Source of the DNA: Planctomycetota bacterium
GTDB taxonomy: Bacteria; Planctomycetota; Brocadiia; Brocadiales; Brocadiaceae
Reading direction: 5' to 3'
Length of the DNA: 64,000 nt
Assembly (NCBI GenBank): GCA_016873155.1
Contig: VGXX01000001.1
Location: 1 to 64,000, forward strand
The notes below the pieces were generated by a model that was not told where the DNA came from, searched no databases, and saw only the letters and a program-made list of their open reading frames with translations. Shown here one piece after another: positions 6,473 through 63,601 of this stretch; positions within the stretch are counted from its first letter, which is position 1; each line of letters opens with the position of its first letter. The position numbers were made by a program, and so were the translations under genes.

Positions 6473-6650
6473 TCCCCCTTAGGAAAGGGGGATTGAGGGG
6501 GTTGTGTTTTTGGGCTATTTTACAACCCCCTATCCTCCCCCTTTGTCCCCCTCCGGAGGGGGACAAAGGGGGAGGATAGGGGGATTTTTTGTCTGCCACT
6601 ACCAAGAACCCGCATAAACAAAATGAAAATTTCTATGCAATAAATTTAAT
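6471..6650. repeat. C-rich composite repeat, copy with GAACCC tail
   Basis: The unit begins CCCCCTTAGGAAAGGGGGATT, continues GAGGGGGTTG and CAACCCCC, and ends with GCCACTACCAAGAACCC and an AAAATGAAAAT tail. The same long unit recurs at 11278-11463 and, with a changed middle, at 21408-21572. It fills most of the space after the mnmE-like gene and abuts its stop codon. Confidence 0.75.
6526..6590 (+). terminator. Very strong hairpin followed by a T run
   Basis: A perfect 29-bp inverted repeat without a loop (arms 6526-6554 and 6555-6583, centre CTCC/GGAG) is followed by ATTTTTT. As RNA this should act as an intrinsic terminator for the mnmE-like gene. It is part of the C-rich repeat at 6471-6650, so termination may be a by-product of the insertion. 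Confidence 0.65.
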
Positions 6651-6708: not shown

Positions 6709-6820
6709 GGAGATTTCTTGAGGATGTTCCTATTTCATAAAGGACATTACACCTCAGCAATCCCCATTAGTAAAGGGGGACTTCGTCGTGAGCTCAGTCG
6801 AACGATTGAGGGGGTTATAA
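6709..6820. repeat. Second C-rich repeat with a nested 25-bp element
   Basis: The stretch TCCCTTTATTAAGGGAGATT is followed by an AATCCCC ... AAAGGGGGA half-repeat. The expected continuation TTGAGGGGGTT is separated from it by exactly 25 bases at 6781-6805 (CTTCGTCGTGAGC-type micro-element). A stretch at about 6822-6849 (GCGTTCTCCGTG) is another common intergenic word. No gene lies between 6473 and 6856. Confidence 0.65.
6781..6805. mobile_element. 25-bp palindromic micro-element, copy 1
   Basis: It starts CTTCGTCGTGAG, ends CAGTCGAACGA, and has TTCG/CGAA outer arms and an inner GAGCTC palindrome. It interrupts the C-rich repeat between GGGGGA and TTGAGGGGG; uninterrupted copies (for example at 6491 and 11296) read GGGGGATTGAGGGGG. 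Confidence 0.6.
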
Positions 6821-43567: not shown

Positions 43568-46129
43568 CTAATCTTTATTAACTTCTGGTTTTTTACAATA
43601 AGAGTTCTTGTTATAAAATATAGATACAGGAATCAGAATCACCATGCTGGTAAGGCTAATAACCATGCCGATGGTAAAGGATTTCGGTTCGTAAACAAAC
43701 TTTATAATGTGATCACCTTTTCCCAGGAAGACTGATCTCATGACATAGTTGGTCTTCAAAACCTTGCTCTGCTTCCCATCAACATAAGCATTCCAGCCTG
43801 GATAAAACGTATCGCCCAGGACAAGATACCCATCGTCTAGCAGAGTTGCCTTTATTGTAACTCTATTTGGTGAGTATTCAATAATTGTCGGGCTGGGTTC
43901 TTGCTGATAATTCTCGCTGCCTATATTCCTTGTGAGACCGGATGGTTCTTCCAGAATAATGCATTTTAACGGATTAAATTCACTGCTGGCGAGTTCTTTA
44001 AATATAGCATCCCTTCCATGGATAGTTTTTGCCTCATGGGCAACAAAGGTGCGCGGTATCGCCTGTGTATTATCAAAAAGGGCATACTTCGAGTTATGAA
44101 AGACCGGTTTGATAGTCGGGTGTTCTATCCTTACATTAGCTGGAAGGAGTAAGTATTTTAAATTAAGCAGATTGGTCAGTTTTGAGATTTGCCTAACCTC
44201 CATAACAATGTTTGGTGTGTCTAAGGGTTTACCGTCCGAGAGGTTTATAAATTCACTGTATTCTTTAATGACATTTGCATCGTATCCACCAATATTCGAG
44301 ATGTCGTGAGCCATGCCCTGGTTTAGCTCAAAATGACCGACGGTCGTGATGCGAGACGTCACAGGGTTGTCTTTCATGATGCTTGTCATTTCCTTGTCCC
44401 AAAAACATTGTCTGGAATCAAAGGTTACCATATAATGGTTTCCGAAAAACCAGAGGTCTCCCAATATAAGGGCAAGGGTGATGGGGATTATAATTTGCCT
44501 TTTTAGCCTGCCGTTAATCCATAAACCAATGACAAGTAAGCTTAATATCATGAGGACTATGAATTTTGCGGCATTGTTTGTGGCTATAGCAAATGTTGCA
44601 CGGAGAAACCCGGGGTCTTTCAAGTCGGGCAATGTGGTGTATCGGTCACCCAGTAAATAAATTTTGTTTATGATGCCATGCCATGACCCGTAACCTGTCC
44701 TGAAGAGAAAGAAGATAATAATGAACAGGCTTATCGCAGCGGTTATACCGATTGTAATATACAGAAAGGCAGGCAGTTTTTTCTTTTTTGAATCAAGGTG
44801 GAAAGGATTTTTATTTACTATAGTATTTCGCAGGTATTCAAAACCAAACCCTGAAAGCACCGAAAGAGAAAAAGCCACGATAAATATAAATTTGGAGTTC
44901 CCCCGAAACATGTTAAATCCAGGGACAACAGAGTAAAGGATTTTAAAGAGGGGTGTGAACTTGCCCAGCGCCAGGATTATGGTGATTAATGCCATAATGA
45001 GAAAGGTCTTCGTGAATGTATTTCTATTATAAAATGAGGCAATTGTGCATAACATCAAGGGAAGGATACCAACATAGAGGGACATCTCCCAGAGGTAATA
45101 TCGCCCCCAGTAAGGGGTTTTCAGTGAATTCCCAAAGAATTCAGGAATGAAAAGGGTGATAAAATTTTCTGGCGCAAAGGAGAACTGACCAACCCATTCG
45201 TAAGAAAGCGTTTGCCGGGTGGAATGTTTAATCATTTCGAAGGCAGGCAGTAATTGAATAGCTGTAAGCAAGATGCCTATCGTGTATATAATGAATACCC
45301 CCGATGCGTGATAACCGACATATTTCCAATCCCTGTGTTCCCGGAATTCCTGAATTATACGAATGATAAAGTATGCAACAACGGAAATGGCAGTATAAAA
45401 AAAGTATTGAGGATGACCCGCCAATATGTTAAATGCAACTGCGACTCCTCCAAAAAATGCATATAAAAAATTTCTGTTACGGATAAACAACTCTGAGAAT
45501 AAAAGAATGAGGGGCAGCCATATCATCGTACACAAATTGGGAAGATGTCCCGGATAGACATGAAATATCTGTGGCGCACAAAACATAAATATAATGGATG
45601 AAACCAGACAGCTCGAACGTGAAAGTGTGTCTGAGTACAATTTCGGATTTCGGACTTCGTCGTGAGCGCTCAGTCGAACGATTTCGGGTTTCGGATTTAA
45701 CTTTACAAACCGGAGATAAAGATAGGTGAATACACCCGACAAAAAAATATGCAGGATGATGCTATAATTAATGGCTACGTGAATAGGGAATATAAGATAG
45801 ATCAGATTGAGCGGATAAAATATGGCGGATTGCAATCCACCAACGAAGGGTGATCCGCTATATATATATGGATTCCAGAGGGGGATGATACCTTTCGCCA
45901 GGGTATTAAAACCAAAGTATCTCCAGTAAAAGAGCTGATGCCTGGTGTCCGTGTTCTGGTCGCTCAGTACTCTCGAACCGTCAGGGATAACGACGTTATA
46001 GAAGTACGCCAGTGTAAGGAGAAATAAGGTTAGTACGGCGAACCAATCATATTTAGACCATGACTTTGTTGGTTCTGAAATTGAACTTGAGTGGAAGTAT
46101 GATGTATTATCATGTAAATTGCAGGCCAT
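43568..46129 (-). CDS. YfhO family membrane protein, tandem paralogue
   Basis: This 853-residue protein has the same architecture as the preceding gene (GFNTLAKGIIPLWNPYIYSG, GHPQYFFYTAISVVAYF, FRGNSKFIFIVAFSL, FYPGWNAYVDGKQSKV). After KLNP it has KPEIVRLSAHDE where the paralogue has only QSA. The nine extra residues correspond exactly to a 27-bp palindromic micro-element (45655-45681). Otherwise the proteins align closely. A common role in envelope glycan synthesis is inferred from the family. Confidence 0.87.
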   Translation of the reverse strand: MACNLHDNTSYFHSSSISEPTKSWSKYDWFAVLTLFLLTLAYFYNVVIPDGSRVLSDQNTDTRHQLFYWRYFGFNTLAKGIIPLWNPYIYSGSPFVGGLQSAIFYPLNLIYLIFPIHVAINYSIILHIFLSGVFTYLYLRFVKLNPKPEIVRLSAHDEVRNPKLYSDTLSRSSCLVSSIIFMFCAPQIFHVYPGHLPNLCTMIWLPLILLFSELFIRNRNFLYAFFGGVAVAFNILAGHPQYFFYTAISVVAYFIIRIIQEFREHRDWKYVGYHASGVFIIYTIGILLTAIQLLPAFEMIKHSTRQTLSYEWVGQFSFAPENFITLFIPEFFGNSLKTPYWGRYYLWEMSLYVGILPLMLCTIASFYNRNTFTKTFLIMALITIILALGKFTPLFKILYSVVPGFNMFRGNSKFIFIVAFSLSVLSGFGFEYLRNTIVNKNPFHLDSKKKKLPAFLYITIGITAAISLFIIIFFLFRTGYGSWHGIINKIYLLGDRYTTLPDLKDPGFLRATFAIATNNAAKFIVLMILSLLVIGLWINGRLKRQIIIPITLALILGDLWFFGNHYMVTFDSRQCFWDKEMTSIMKDNPVTSRITTVGHFELNQGMAHDISNIGGYDANVIKEYSEFINLSDGKPLDTPNIVMEVRQISKLTNLLNLKYLLLPANVRIEHPTIKPVFHNSKYALFDNTQAIPRTFVAHEAKTIHGRDAIFKELASSEFNPLKCIILEEPSGLTRNIGSENYQQEPSPTIIEYSPNRVTIKATLLDDGYLVLGDTFYPGWNAYVDGKQSKVLKTNYVMRSVFLGKGDHIIKFVYEPKSFTIGMVISLTSMVILIPVSIFYNKNSYCKKPEVNKD
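45655..45681. mobile_element. 27-bp palindromic micro-element inside a YfhO gene
   Basis: It starts CTTCGTCGTGAGCG, ends CAGTCGAACGA, and has a perfect TGAGCGCTCA centre. In the tandem paralogue (about 43025) GGAC is followed directly by the sequence that here comes after the element, so it is a clean 27-bp in-frame insertion. Confidence 0.75.
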
Positions 46130-46844: not shown

Positions 46845-49340
46845 ATGCAAAACAAAAGAGCGCTTATCCCGATTTTTCTGTGTATTGCTGCCATTGGCTG
46901 CTATGCGACTATTGCCCAGGTGATGTTGATTCGTGAGTTCCTGAATATTTTTTATGGCAATGAGTTGTGCCTGGGTATCGTATTTGGCGCATGGTTTCTT
47001 GGCATTGCGACCGGCGCATTTGCCGGTGCAAAGATCGAGTATACCTTTAAACACGCGTTCACTGTTTTTGTGATTACGTTGATGGCTATGTGTTTTGTAT
47101 TACCCGTGCAAATTGTTTTTGTGCGTGGTGTACGCGGTCTTTTGAGTGTCGGAGTTGGCGAATACATTTCTATCCTGCCATTACTGCTCACATCCATCGG
47201 ACTGATCCTCCCTTTTAGCTTTATCGTCGGATTCATCTTTCCGTTCTCATCAAAGATTATATCAGGAGCTACCCGCGATGCCGCTGTGGACATTGGAGTC
47301 GTTTACATCATAGAATCCATGGGCAGTCTCTTTGGAGGGATCGTATTTTCATTTTTCCTGGTCTCAAGATTCCATTCATTTAAAATTATCACACTGCTGA
47401 ATACAGGATTGTTTATCCTTTTAACCTTTTTGCTTTTCAATTTTCACAGAAAGGGACAAGTCTATTCCAGCGGAGAAGAGGATAAAAAGACAAAAATGGT
47501 TTTGGGCTTTATTTCTCTCGGTTTAGCGTCGGTTATGATTGTAGTTTGGCTTTCACCCATTCCAGACAGGGTTGAGGTATTTTCCTCAAAAATGCGGTGG
47601 AAGACATTAAATCCTCACATTGAACTGATGACCTCAGCGGACTCAAAATATCAGCATATTGATATAGGCAGACAGGCCGAACAATACAGCATTTATCTCA
47701 ATGGGCAATACGCCTCCGCCTTTCCCAATGAATACGAATACGCCCAGATTGCCCATCTGGTAATGACCCAGCATCCATCGCCAAAACACGTGCTCCTGAT
47801 TGGTTCGGGATTGGGCGGACTCATTTCAGAAATGATCCGGCACCCTATAGAATCGTTGGATTACGTGGAAATTGATCAACGGCTCTTGCAAATATCTGAC
47901 AAGTATCTTTCCTCTTCGGATAGGCAGGCGCTTTCAGACAGACGGGTAACGATAATTCATCAGGACGGTCGTTATTACGTAAAAAATTCTCTGAAAAGAC
48001 AGTACTATGACATCATTCTGGTAAATACACCCGACCCCTCAACGGCCTTCCTCAACCGTTTCTATACCTTGGAATTTTTTAGAGAGGCCCAGAAAATTTT
48101 AAAGTCCGATGGTGTTTTGATCGCTTCGGTTAGCTCGGCGGTTACCTATATCGGGAAGGAAGTCGGGAGTTATACGGGTTCTCTTTATCGTACCTTGCAT
48201 GAGACCTTTCGAAATGTATTGGTGACACCGGGTCAGACCAACTCCTACTTTGCATGCAATAAAGACGGTGTCATTACCCTGAACATTGAAACGCTCATGG
48301 AACGGTATCGAAAATCTCAGGTAAAATCCGATTACTTCACCGAATATCTCTTTTATACCCTGCTTCAGCCGGAGCAGGTTAAATTCATCGAAAATCAACT
48401 GAGCCAGAGAAAGGATTTGCTTGTCAATACTGATGCAAGACCCGTTACCTATTTTTTGAACCTTGTATTATGGGATTCCCTTGCCGGTGGGCGCTCACAT
48501 GGATTATTTCATGGTTTAAAAGATGTGAAATTACAATGGTTCCTCATCCCAATTGTGATTGCACTTGCAGGCAGGATAATTTATGTGAAATTCAAAATAA
48601 ATCAACCTGAGTCTGTTGAAGAATTTAACCCTTATTACACCAAACAACTAAAGACTAATTGCCTCATTGCCCTGGCCACAACGGGGTTTACCGGTATTGC
48701 CCTGGAAATCGTGCTCCTCTATGCCTTCCAAAATATCTATGGCTACATCTATGAAAGAGTGGGTGTTATTGTTGCCGTATTTATGGTGGGACTTGCGGTA
48801 GGAGGATACTTTATGAATCAAATTATTAAGAAAACCCGAAATCGTTCGACTGAGCGCTCACGACGAAGTCCGAAATCAGAAATCCCAAATCACTGCTTGC
48901 CGCCAACAGACGTTGATTCCTACCTGTGGATAAATCTCCTGATGGTCTTTGAAGGGGTTGTTGTATTATTTGCCATTATTTTGCCGTTTATAATTTATGT
49001 ATTATCTTTTTACTCAGTTGCAGCAGAGGTTGGGTTGACCTGTTTCATTGGTATCGCAGGGGTATTGACAGGACTGGTATTCCCTTTGGTCAATAAGATA
49101 TTTATGCAAAGCAGCAAAGATATGGCAGTATCCGCAGGGATAACATACAGCGCCGATCACATCGGTGCCATTTTAGGGGCGATATTTACCGGAGTAATCC
49201 TTGTACCGCTTCTTGGTGTATTCGGAATGTGCCTGATCCTGTCCGCACTCAAGATATCGAGTTTAGTTTTGATAGCTTTTTCAGTTTTGTGTCGCAAAAG
49301 ACCAAATTACCGGTGTAAAGGTACAAGTTCTTTAGCGTGA
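46845..49340 (+). CDS. Membrane-embedded spermidine-synthase-like protein
   Basis: This 831-residue protein has an N-terminal set of about seven membrane helices (starting AAIGCYATIAQVMLIREFLN). A cytoplasmic Rossmann domain of the spermidine synthase/methyltransferase type lies at about 320-480 (VLLIGSGLGGLISEMI, LDYVEIDQRLL, DGRYYVKN, YDIILVNTPDPSTAFLNRFYTLEFF). A second membrane set follows (ALEIVLLYAFQNIYGYIYERVG). Such fused proteins are common in planctomycetes and deltaproteobacteria; real polyamine synthesis is unproven. A 27-bp micro-element (48843-48869) is translated inside a loop as RSTERSRRSP. Confidence 0.85.
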   Translation: MQNKRALIPIFLCIAAIGCYATIAQVMLIREFLNIFYGNELCLGIVFGAWFLGIATGAFAGAKIEYTFKHAFTVFVITLMAMCFVLPVQIVFVRGVRGLLSVGVGEYISILPLLLTSIGLILPFSFIVGFIFPFSSKIISGATRDAAVDIGVVYIIESMGSLFGGIVFSFFLVSRFHSFKIITLLNTGLFILLTFLLFNFHRKGQVYSSGEEDKKTKMVLGFISLGLASVMIVVWLSPIPDRVEVFSSKMRWKTLNPHIELMTSADSKYQHIDIGRQAEQYSIYLNGQYASAFPNEYEYAQIAHLVMTQHPSPKHVLLIGSGLGGLISEMIRHPIESLDYVEIDQRLLQISDKYLSSSDRQALSDRRVTIIHQDGRYYVKNSLKRQYYDIILVNTPDPSTAFLNRFYTLEFFREAQKILKSDGVLIASVSSAVTYIGKEVGSYTGSLYRTLHETFRNVLVTPGQTNSYFACNKDGVITLNIETLMERYRKSQVKSDYFTEYLFYTLLQPEQVKFIENQLSQRKDLLVNTDARPVTYFLNLVLWDSLAGGRSHGLFHGLKDVKLQWFLIPIVIALAGRIIYVKFKINQPESVEEFNPYYTKQLKTNCLIALATTGFTGIALEIVLLYAFQNIYGYIYERVGVIVAVFMVGLAVGGYFMNQIIKKTRNRSTERSRRSPKSEIPNHCLPPTDVDSYLWINLLMVFEGVVVLFAIILPFIIYVLSFYSVAAEVGLTCFIGIAGVLTGLVFPLVNKIFMQSSKDMAVSAGITYSADHIGAILGAIFTGVILVPLLGVFGMCLILSALKISSLVLIAFSVLCRKRPNYRCKGTSSLA
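48843..48869. mobile_element. 27-bp micro-element inside the spermidine-synthase-like gene
   Basis: This is the reverse-complement orientation of the element at 45655: it begins TCGTTCGACTGAGCGC and ends CACGACGAAG. It is translated in frame in a cytoplasmic loop between two membrane helices. Confidence 0.65.
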
Positions 49341-54335: not shown

Positions 54336-54362
54336 CTTCGTCGTGAGCGCTCAGTCGAACGA
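54336..54362. mobile_element. 27-bp micro-element nested in a GGTTCA palindrome
   Basis: The flanks read CTGGTTCACCCATTGCAGA on the left and TTGAACCAGC on the right, so the element sits between the two arms of a GGTTCA-type palindrome. It is the same 27-bp sequence as at 45655 and 59812. Confidence 0.6.
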
Positions 54363-59811: not shown

Positions 59812-59838
59812 CTTCGTCGTGAGCGCTCAGTCGAACGA
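59812..59838. mobile_element. 27-bp palindromic micro-element, intergenic copy
   Basis: Identical in sequence to the copies at 45655 and 54336 (starts CTTCGTCGTGAGCG, ends CAGTCGAACGA), flanked by AAAGCAGA and CTGCCAGG, which can themselves pair weakly. Confidence 0.6.
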
Positions 59839-60640: not shown

Positions 60641-63601
60641 ATGTTGTCGTCTTTTAAAATGTCACACATTCAATCACATCCAAATAAACCAGAATTACTC
60701 TCTCCGGCAGGCAGTCTGGAGTGCTTTTTTGCCGCCGTTGAAAACGGGGCTGACGCCGTTTATTTCGGTTTAAAGGATTTTAGCGCCCGTGCGAGCGCAG
60801 GCAATTTTGCCATCGATGACGCCAGCAAGGCCATTGCCTATGCCCGCAAAAGGTCAGTCAGGGTCTACATCGCCATTAATACCCTGATTAAAACTAATGA
60901 ACTGGAAAAGGTCGTGGATTATTTAATCGCACTGGACGAACTACAACCTGACGCATTGATTCTCCAGGATTTAGGGCTTCTGTACTTAATACAATCCCAA
61001 TTCCCTCATTTTCAATTACACGCCAGCACGCAGATGACCATCCACAATCTTGCTGGAGTTAAGCGACTGGAAAGGATGGGGTTTAAACGTGTGGTCTTAT
61101 CCAGGGAGTTATCTATAGACGAAATTAGAAATATTACCCAAAATACCAACATGGAGATTGAAGTATTTGTGCATGGGGCGTTGTGTTACTCCTATTCGGG
61201 ATTATGCTTCTTCAGCAGTATGATGGGTGGACGGAGCGGGAATCGCGGCCGCTGCGCACAGCCATGCAGGATGTATTACAACGCCCAGCCAGACGAAGGA
61301 GGGTACCTGTTTTCTATGAAAGACCTCTGCACCCTGTCACACATAAAAGAGTTGATGACCGCGTGCATCCGTTCATTCAAGATTGAAGGCCGCATGAAAT
61401 CGCCAGAGTACGTGGCCGTAGCGACACACACCTACCGGCAGGCAATAGATGGCAAACTAAAAGACGAAGAGGCGGCCATTCATCTTATGAATACGGTGTT
61501 TAGCCGGGAGGCAACCCATGCATACCTGTTTGATAAAAGTTATAAACAAGCCGAAAAAAGAATAAATAATAAATGTTCTCGATACCGGGAAGAAGACCAC
61601 ACCTTATCTCCTTGTGAAGGAGGAAATTTGAAGAGCCATTACTTTACCACCCCTTTATCCCCTCCTTGCGAAGGAGGGGAGAGAGGGGAGGTTATAAAAT
61701 CGCCAGGGTTCCTTCATGATTTTAAACGGTTATCTGGCAATGCACAAATAAAGCCTTCAGACATGGTTAATCCATCATATCCCTCAAATATTGGGTCTTA
61801 TGCCGGTGAGGTAATAAAATCAGGAAAGGAATACGTCACCATAAGGGCAAATGCCGAAATTGGTGTACGGGATTTGTTGCAGGTTTTTGAAGATAGTTCA
61901 GAAGAACCAGCTTTGTTACACGTGAAGAACATCAAGGTCAATGGTAAAAGGGTGTTTGGCATAAAGGTCGGCGATATTGCTATAGTCGATACAGAACGAC
62001 AGTATAAACAGGGGGCGAAGATATATTTGCTTTCCTCGCAAAAGGTCAAAGAAATGTTTGCGCCAAAAGTGCCGAAAAAATTGGCGACTTCTAAGATACC
62101 GGTAGATGTGGAGATTAAAATAACGCCTGATGGCATAGGCATAAAGGGGGATACAAGGCATTCTTCTTTTTCCAGGGATTTTTGTGTAAAACTGGAAAAG
62201 GGAATCAACAGGACAACTGATACAGAAAATATAAAGGAATGCTTTGCTCGTCTGGGCGAGACGCCATTTGAACTGGCTGGTATTCATACAGAAATTTCTG
62301 AGGGATTATTTGTTCCGCTTAGTGTATTAAATGAGATTCGAAGGGATTATTTCCAAATTTTTTGTGAAGAATGGCGGAAGGATAGAGATTGTAGAAGTGA
62401 AGAGATAAAGAAGTGGATGCATGAAAAATGTATTGAATACAGCAGTGCAAGCAGTCAATTGCCTGGCGAAAGTTCCATTTCAGCCTCCATAAATCCCCCT
62501 TTAGAAAAGGGGGGAACGGTTCACCCCCACCGAAACCGCCTTCCCTCCCCCTTTCTCCCCCTCAGTGAGGGGGACAGGGAGAGGAAACTACGGGACAATG
62601 TGTATTCCCCGCCCCTGGTGGGAGGGGTTAGAGCCTGCCCCGTACCTGATACGGGGGGAGGGGGTAAACTGAAGGAGAACTCAGGGGGAGATGGAATCAG
62701 GCGGTCCCTGAAGATAGACAAATTACAGTATTTGAACCGCATTCCTTTAGAGAAGTTTTATAAGATATACATTGTCTTGACAGATGAAACGATTGGAGAT
62801 CTCCTGGCGCAGCAAAGCCACAATCAAATCCCCCTTAACAAAGGGGGACTTCGTCGTGAGCTCAGTCGAACGATAAGGGGGTTGTTAAATACGTGCATAG
62901 AAAATAATGAAAGTATCTTCCCATCGAATGTAAGAGACAAAATCGTCTTCTCTTTGCCCACCATTATGCGAGATACGGGGAACGGATGTATGACGTATGG
63001 GTATTTTAAGAAAGTCGTGCAGGAACTGATTTCACAGGGTTTTCGACAATTCCAGATTTCCAATCTTGGCGCTCTGGAACTATTTGATGACGAGGACGTA
63101 CAGTTGTATGCCGATTATCCTTTGTACTGCCTGAACCCGCTTTCAGCAATAAAACTCAGGGAATTGGGATTTTGCAGGCATACGTTATCTCCTGAAGATG
63201 GCAAGGGGAATTTGGAGATGCTGTTTTCTCCAAATTCGGATGTAATTGTTTATCAGGACACCCCGCTTTTTACTTCAGAAACATGTGTTTGGGCGAATAT
63301 GAAGAAATCGTGTCCAGGAAGGAATCGGTGTGGTTTCAAACAGATAATGCTGGAAAACGAATACGGCGACCAGTTTGTGGCAATAGATGAGAATTGTAAA
63401 ACAGTGGTTATTGACGAGAGGCCATTCTCAATTGCCCATCTTATTCCGAAACTCATTGAGTCCGGACAAAGGGATTTCAGGATTGATTTATGTTACAGGG
63501 ATTATTCGCCTGAAATGATTAATGATATCTTTTCTGCCATTCACAAAAAGTGTAAGATTAAAAATTCGCTGGTAGGAAATTTTGAAAGGGGGTTATTGTA
63601 G
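60641..63601 (+). CDS. U32 family peptidase / RNA hydroxylase-like protein with repeat-derived inserts
   Basis: This 986-residue protein has the U32 core at residues 15-330 (PELLSPAGSLECFFAAVENGADAVYFG) and the signature EVFVHGALCYSYSGLCF with iron-sulfur-type cysteines (RGRCAQPC). DUF3656 and further C-terminal parts follow. RlhA and TrhP of this family hydroxylate rRNA or tRNA, so an RNA-hydroxylation role is more likely than proteolysis. Three segments are plainly translated C-rich repeats (61601-61695, 62493-62692, 62826-62885), including PLSPPCEGGERGE and QIPLNKGG; without them the protein would be near the usual 830-870 residues. ATG 60641 is used; ATG 60659 is possible. Confidence 0.87.
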   Translation: MLSSFKMSHIQSHPNKPELLSPAGSLECFFAAVENGADAVYFGLKDFSARASAGNFAIDDASKAIAYARKRSVRVYIAINTLIKTNELEKVVDYLIALDELQPDALILQDLGLLYLIQSQFPHFQLHASTQMTIHNLAGVKRLERMGFKRVVLSRELSIDEIRNITQNTNMEIEVFVHGALCYSYSGLCFFSSMMGGRSGNRGRCAQPCRMYYNAQPDEGGYLFSMKDLCTLSHIKELMTACIRSFKIEGRMKSPEYVAVATHTYRQAIDGKLKDEEAAIHLMNTVFSREATHAYLFDKSYKQAEKRINNKCSRYREEDHTLSPCEGGNLKSHYFTTPLSPPCEGGERGEVIKSPGFLHDFKRLSGNAQIKPSDMVNPSYPSNIGSYAGEVIKSGKEYVTIRANAEIGVRDLLQVFEDSSEEPALLHVKNIKVNGKRVFGIKVGDIAIVDTERQYKQGAKIYLLSSQKVKEMFAPKVPKKLATSKIPVDVEIKITPDGIGIKGDTRHSSFSRDFCVKLEKGINRTTDTENIKECFARLGETPFELAGIHTEISEGLFVPLSVLNEIRRDYFQIFCEEWRKDRDCRSEEIKKWMHEKCIEYSSASSQLPGESSISASINPPLEKGGTVHPHRNRLPSPFLPLSEGDRERKLRDNVYSPPLVGGVRACPVPDTGGGGKLKENSGGDGIRRSLKIDKLQYLNRIPLEKFYKIYIVLTDETIGDLLAQQSHNQIPLNKGGLRRELSRTIRGLLNTCIENNESIFPSNVRDKIVFSLPTIMRDTGNGCMTYGYFKKVVQELISQGFRQFQISNLGALELFDDEDVQLYADYPLYCLNPLSAIKLRELGFCRHTLSPEDGKGNLEMLFSPNSDVIVYQDTPLFTSETCVWANMKKSCPGRNRCGFKQIMLENEYGDQFVAIDENCKTVVIDERPFSIAHLIPKLIESGQRDFRIDLCYRDYSPEMINDIFSAIHKKCKIKNSLVGNFERGLL
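61601..61695. repeat. C-rich repeat inside the U32 gene, copy 1
   Basis: CTTATCTCCTTGTGAAGG, CCCCTTTATCCCCTCC and GCGAAGGAGGGGAGAGAGG hairpins are read through as LSPCEGG and PLSPPCEGGERGE, without a stop or frame loss. Confidence 0.75.
62493..62692. repeat. C-rich repeats inside the U32 gene, copy 2 (compound)
   Basis: At least three hairpin units in tandem occur here: ATCCCCCTTTAGAAAAGGGG, CTCCCCCTTTCTCCCCC with GTGAGGGGGACAGGGAG, and TCCCCGCCCCTGGTGGGAGG with GGGGGAGGGGGTAAACT. They encode about 67 residues rich in P, G and R that have no place in the family. Confidence 0.75.
62826..62885. repeat. C-rich repeat inside the U32 gene, copy 3, with nested micro-element
   Basis: AAATCCCCCTTAACAAAGGGGG is interrupted before TAAGGGGGTTG by the 25-bp micro-element at 62849-62873. 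The whole composite is read in frame as QIPLNKGGLRRELSRTIRGLL. Confidence 0.75.
62849..62873. mobile_element. 25-bp micro-element nested in a repeat inside the U32 gene
   Basis: Same 25-bp form as at 6781-6805 (CTTCGTCGTGAG ... CAGTCGAACGA, central GAGCTC), and in the same position of the host repeat, right after GGGGGA. Confidence 0.65.

Follow-up and report, generated by a model that had tools for sequence, protein, structure and literature searches.

The window (the whole 64-kb stretch of DNA that was analyzed) contains six copies of a 25-27 bp palindrome, CTTCGTCGTGAG(CG)CTCAGTCGAACGA, five on the plus strand and one on the minus strand. By chance, a 12-mer with at most one mismatch is expected 0.08 times per window, and six occurrences were never reached in shuffles. 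An earlier note on this DNA had listed six copies that are identical apart from their centers (25 vs. 27 bp). All six are present, and CT or CGCT at the center is indeed the only variation; the minus-strand copy, however, occupies 48842-48868, one base off the span of 48843-48869 given for it.

One 25-bp copy (6781-6805, plus strand) lies within a C-rich inverted repeat (AATCCCCATTAGTAAAGGGGGA|TTGAGGGGGTT) between genes for a TrmE-like protein and tyrosyl-tRNA synthetase, and another (62849-62873, plus strand) is found in a C-rich repeat within the ORF of a U32 peptidase. The remaining copies are 27 bp in length. That at 45655-45681 (plus strand) is located in an array of ATTTCGG heptamers inside a YfhO ORF. 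It is preceded by the dinucleotide GA (45653-45654, plus strand) and includes a perfect inner palindrome, TGAGCGCTCA (45663-45672, plus strand), as well as the base N and following C of a CAG[N]C motif (45674-45675, plus strand), a dinucleotide that is complementary to the target (here, TC against GA). The minus-strand copy (48842-48868) is read in frame within an 831-aa ORF that includes a spermine-synthase domain. The copy at 54336-54362 (plus strand) occupies the loop of a hairpin, GCTGGTTCA..TTGAACCAGC, and that at 59812-59838 (plus strand) occupies the site GCAGA|CTGCCAGGAT; similar repeat sites are filled by the element in sister genomes.

The C-rich inverted repeats are dispersed in their own right and are a frequent host of the element. 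Intact examples (CCCCCTTA..AAAGGGGGATT.AGGGGG) occur in the window at 6474, 11278, and 21410, and one such inverted repeat is contained in the U32 peptidase ORF, close to 62849.

Comparison with empty sites

The intact C-rich repeats at 6474 and 11278 read GGGGGATTGAGGGGG, vs. GGGGGA[25 nt]TTGAGGGGG at 6781, which upholds the precise 25-bp gain after GGGGGA that had been claimed previously. The claim of a precise 27-bp in-frame gain relative to a YfhO paralog was also borne out, by a 27-nt gap in the paralog present within the window. For the copy at 48842, the orthologous gene in genome G003 has an exact 27-nt gap, and the spermine-synthase-domain ORF of the window has nine extra residues. 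The copy at 62849 can be compared with an orthologous empty site in genome G005; in this case, the net gain is 24 nt and the frame of the U32 peptidase ORF is kept, because one T differs as well. The copy at 45655 is shared, with point differences, by the sister species represented by G001, G002, and G004, and its presence in three sister species implies that it is old.

Overall, 223 distinct element sites grouped into 64 flank clusters, and thus the copies are not the product of a single clonal duplication. At 130 of 144 comparable sites, the junction showed no indel relative to the best uninterrupted homolog, and GAT was pre-existing in 95. Nearly all junctions differ by exactly the element, and one differs by a net 24 nt. 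Together with the orthologous empty sites in G003 and G005, these junctions agree with the earlier report of clean insertion, including into coding DNA. The alignments show that the element inserts into pre-existing GA|T sites with no loss of host bases. We consider it highly likely that the element is mobile, and it appears to rank among the smallest mobile DNA elements known.

Copy number and distribution

A genome-wide count, which the earlier note had proposed, yielded 46 exact copies (23 per strand) in the 3.46-Mb genome (362 contigs, Brocadiaceae), for which the chance expectation is near zero; the reversed pattern, used as a control on the same 3.46-Mb genome, gave 0 matches. When the 27-mer form was searched for at up to three mismatches, 19 matches were exact, and five, three, and two had one, two, and three differences, respectively. 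Given that most copies are identical, they are probably young. The center of the inner palindrome is the sole variable part (CT, CGCT, TT, AT, CACT, and others).

Exact copies were found in 28 of 59 relatives. All of these carriers are Brocadiaceae, and the order's other families have none. Among named genome records, those with the element include Candidatus Brocadia, Kuenenia hertensis, and many Brocadiaceae bins, and on this basis the window is assumed to come from an anammox planctomycete. The same 25-27-mer occurs elsewhere, in bins assigned to Dadabacteria (14 copies), Deltaproteobacteria (five copies), and Anaerolineae (four copies), as well as in the isolate Fischerella PCC 9431 (13 copies, one scaffold). 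The exact element is present in eight of 118 Nostocaceae genomes, where the copies shown sit in ATTTTGG-type arrays, and the element was also found in a Calothrix plasmid. It should be noted that where a bin from an anammox reactor has a single copy, the contig may have been misassigned; this doubt applies much less to the isolate and to the genomes with multiple copies. The element is identical letter for letter between phyla, a finding that goes beyond the earlier note, and it occurs in multiple, almost unvarying copies within genomes that are unrelated to each other. In a search for carriage by phages, annotated phages gave no match and viral contigs gave one. The core letters of the element were absent from any bacterial-repeat context in the literature searched.

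Target sites and host repeats

The left-hand GA preference suggested previously is seen in a larger set: among 160 dereplicated sites, G is at position -2 in 159, left GA is present in 152, and the first base on the right is T in 135 (counted over dereplicated element copies, GA is found at 178 of 188). Also beyond the earlier reading, most copies of the element are embedded in dispersed repeats of other kinds, namely hairpins and tandem heptamers. Joined flanks match uninterrupted repeats or empty sites elsewhere in 144 of 179 cases, vs. 143 of 560 control RGA|T sites, the control value being inflated by overlapping loci. Flanks capable of forming a hairpin around the site (stem score of at least 7) account for 24%, vs. 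1.8% of random RGA|T sites. The recurrent host repeats are C-rich inverted repeats, ATTTTGG/ATTTCGG heptamers, CACAGATT arrays, and GTAGGGTGGATT..AATCCACC repeats. We propose that hairpins and tandem heptamers may be favored as targets because they are exposed or because insertions there are tolerated. Because GA flanks the element on both sides, the cut could be placed before, after, or within GA.

In two places (L092 at ∼5026 and L111 at ∼2781), a common repeat, CATCCTGAGCTTGTCGAAGGAT, stands in place of the left half of the element, and only CAGTCGAACGA remains.

Related elements and their target dinucleotides

The element belongs to a superfamily with the backbone CTTCG-N'-C-(variable center)-TCAG-N-CGAACG-X, most members of which are 24-27 nt in length. 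Related elements vary at the inner base N of TCAG[N]CGAACG, a base that is the complement of the target base in the flank. When N was compared with the left flank at 332 sites, T was paired with GA in 227 of 253, C with GG in 52 of 59, and A with GT in 15 of 16, although most of the A class is one nested composite and represents few events. The pattern persists after clustering of flanks (T with GA, 69 clusters; T with GG, one; C with GA, four; C with GG, 38; Fisher 3.6e-24), with the sites not fully independent because the two main N classes are element lineages. On the backbone CTTCGGCGTGAGCTCAGNCGAACG, with only N changed, A leads to GT (14 of 15), C to GG (6 of 6), and T to GA (five) or GC (seven). 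The stem partner N' does not predict the target, whereas N does. In a check of the rule in cyanobacteria, 26 of 29 C-type sites follow GG, and CTTCGGCCGTGAGCTCAGCCGAACGG, which is common to another family of the order and cyanobacteria, is also positioned after GG. There are exceptions: four C-type clusters follow GA, and cousins with a T guide, when nested in other repeats, often have GC rather than GA before them (7 of 13 in one backbone). The aligned sites show complementarity between N and the target.

Several individual loci are worth recording. The C-type cousins L469, L426, L432, and L344 are at GA sites and have GA ends, against the rule. In composites (L350, L351, L352, L348, and L343), a cousin, CTTCGGCGTGAGCTCAGACGAACG plus one base, is nested at the exact center of the window's element; the resulting units of 38 and 50 bp are themselves at GA|T sites. 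The cyanobacterial genome G471 has 31 superfamily copies of the CTTCGGCCGTGAGCTCAGCCGAACG type (L431, L439, L445, and others), including four that are 235 bp apart at 1.148 Mb.

Possible mechanism and alternatives

The earlier suggestion that the element, being far too small to move itself, needs an enzyme in trans is supported. In our view, the best explanation (with a probability of about 0.55) is a non-autonomous, SDR/REP-like micro-element that a Y1 HUH single-strand nuclease mobilizes in trans. Such a nuclease (IS200/IS605- or RAYT-like) would act on single-stranded DNA and cut both element ends and the target, with the dinucleotide picked by pairing with an internal guide; the short excised strand would then be joined at the target dinucleotide. 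The putative guide is NC on the strand as drawn. Read on the reverse strand, it would be GA, GG, or GT immediately 5' to the inner palindrome. REPs have their GTAG foot in the equivalent place, and base changes in this foot shift the cleavage dinucleotide by complementarity (PMC8266576). We favor a Y1 HUH enzyme in trans because of this REP-like guide position, a weak lagging-template bias, and the G|AT position of SDR5, which is reported to enter HIP1 between the third and fourth base (GCG|ATCGC; PMC4390886). The bias was evaluated against GC skew: the reverse strand is on the G-rich strand in 29 of 44 cases (p=0.049), or in 24 of 33 (p=0.014) at one threshold, a weak and threshold-dependent signal in the direction expected for a reaction on the lagging template.

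The HUH mechanism is less certain than mobility, and the single-strand reaction, the enzyme class, and the role of the guide are all things that we infer. The enzyme itself is only a candidate, because no examined Y1 gene is flanked by the element: in the Y1_Tnp loci retrieved from the same genome, related genomes, and genomes of other phyla (part of all Y1 matches), no copy was present within ∼1.5 kb of the gene. Y1 genes are also present in Brocadiaceae genomes that have no exact copies.

Several more specific ideas were rejected. RAYT genes flanked by the element were sought, and there were none among the loci examined. A Y1 protein clade confined to carrier genomes was likewise dismissed, given that there were moderate matches only (40%-52% identity) and no carrier-limited clade, as was a parent transposon bearing one half of the element at each end (three lone right halves in the fetched loci, none paired). 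Single-strand stability does not seem to be the driver, as single-stranded folding of the 25-27-mer is poor (z about +1 vs. shuffled sequences), and that of the main element is not better than in shuffled sequence.

It is possible, but in our judgment unlikely, that a double-strand transposase or recombinase acts in trans and that GA (or GG) is a 2-bp target duplication, hence the match of left and terminal dinucleotides. These do agree in many clusters (GA..GA in 71 and GG..GG in 34 of 129), there is one GA in empty sites, and the element boundaries can be placed only to within 2 nt. However, among copies of the element itself, left GG occurs with terminal GA (seven copies) and terminal GG with left GA (three copies) but GG..GG does not occur (0), and where the right dinucleotide is GG or GT the left stays GA. 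Furthermore, a non-A end is found in only five of about 371 family copies. Later point mutations may have generated these exceptions. Target duplication does not predict the complementarity of N and flank. The non-covarying ends lean away from a variable target duplication and are compatible with a fixed one. Duplication as the sole explanation was rejected, because left and terminal exceptions do not co-vary; duplication itself may still take place.

Two further alternatives seem to us improbable. An RNA-based reaction, as was reportedly proposed for the Nostoc SDR, could bring the element into GA|T sites, and would suit a small imperfect hairpin with clean, orientation-fixed insertion; yet no partner gene is known, the element has no known intron or retron feature, and pairing by a DNA guide fits the target rule equally well. 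The other is that most copies were multiplied along with their host repeats (C-rich palindromes, heptamers, and CACAGATT arrays) following few independent insertions. Some of the flank clusters are large (44, 30, and 19 members), and composites with nested cousins recur, as expected for such passengers. On the other hand, there are 64 clusters, positions differ within the same repeat, and in-gene copies have orthologous empty sites; at 62849 and 48842, only the element differs and not the host repeat. This process adds copies and cannot account for the first insertions. Least probable by far is a protein-binding or regulatory palindrome that is conserved by selection and is not mobile. The near invariance of both arms across phyla would be consistent with this, but in-frame copies in coding DNA, clean empty sites, patchy occurrence (8/118 Nostocaceae, 28/59 relatives), and the lack of a fixed genomic context are not.

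Returning to movement by a Y1 HUH nuclease, we tentatively suggest, while regarding it as rather doubtful, that the internal base and the fixed C pair with the target dinucleotide and constitute the element's own targeting code. Natural single-base variants would then be directed to GA, GG, or GT, and these tiny sequences would cross phyla intact by making use of resident, unlinked HUH nucleases. If this rule is true, the minimum for mobile DNA would be ∼25 bases, own address included, and natural variants would supply substrates that are ready to use, each with a predicted target. What moves SDR-like repeats would become testable using oligonucleotides, and cyanobacterial SDRs, REPs, and IS200/IS605 would be linked via one mechanism. 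The rule would also offer a straightforward origin for small in-frame insertions within genes and for repeats that unrelated phyla share letter for letter.

Comparison with known systems

The small dispersed repeats (SDR) of Nostoc and its relatives (Elhai et al. 2008) are said to be imperfect palindromes of 21-27 nt that occur inside tandem heptamers or other repeats, with nested copies, and are reportedly described as essentially confined to a cyanobacterial subgroup. At 25-27 nt, the element is within this range, and it too is embedded in tandem heptamers and other repeats and has nested cousins. It shares the G|AT insertion position with SDR5 in HIP1, as reported for the latter (PMC4390886). 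In contrast, the element is commonest in Brocadiaceae and is cross-phylum; this comparison with the SDR families is one of descriptions.

Rickettsia palindromic elements are similar in that a palindrome is inserted in frame into protein genes, but their sequence is unlike that of the element and they are reportedly far longer than 25-27 bp. Elements of the IS200/IS605 type and their palindrome-only derivatives have a short, fixed, adjacent target, guide-target complementarity, and no clear target duplication. The element resembles them in its clear GA|T target and in the complementarity of N to it, and it likewise gives no clear sign of target duplication, though GA may be duplicated. Unlike them, it has no transposase, and it consists of a single 25-27 bp palindrome instead of having a left-right pair of hairpins. 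MITEs share terminal inverted repeats with a full-length transposon and have target duplications; for the element, no half-elements flanking a longer unit were seen in the fetched loci, where the three lone right halves occur.

REP/RAYT systems (GTAG, CGTC) are alike in having many copies of a short imperfect palindrome, mostly outside genes and sometimes in frame, and in the guide-like bases that lie next to the palindrome. In REPs these correspond to the cleavage dinucleotide (PMC8266576, PMC3733652); in the element they are complementary in sequence to the target, and their role in cleavage is putative. They differ in that the element has no unpaired terminal GTAG/CGTC (its ends are CTTCG and ACGA, with RGA and T as flanks), no RAYT gene has flanking element copies in the examined loci, and the element is shared letter for letter between phyla, unlike REPs, which are as a rule specific to a species (PMC6006769). 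What is new relative to these systems is a trans-phylum family with a one-base target rule; otherwise, this is an SDR/REP-like micro-element.
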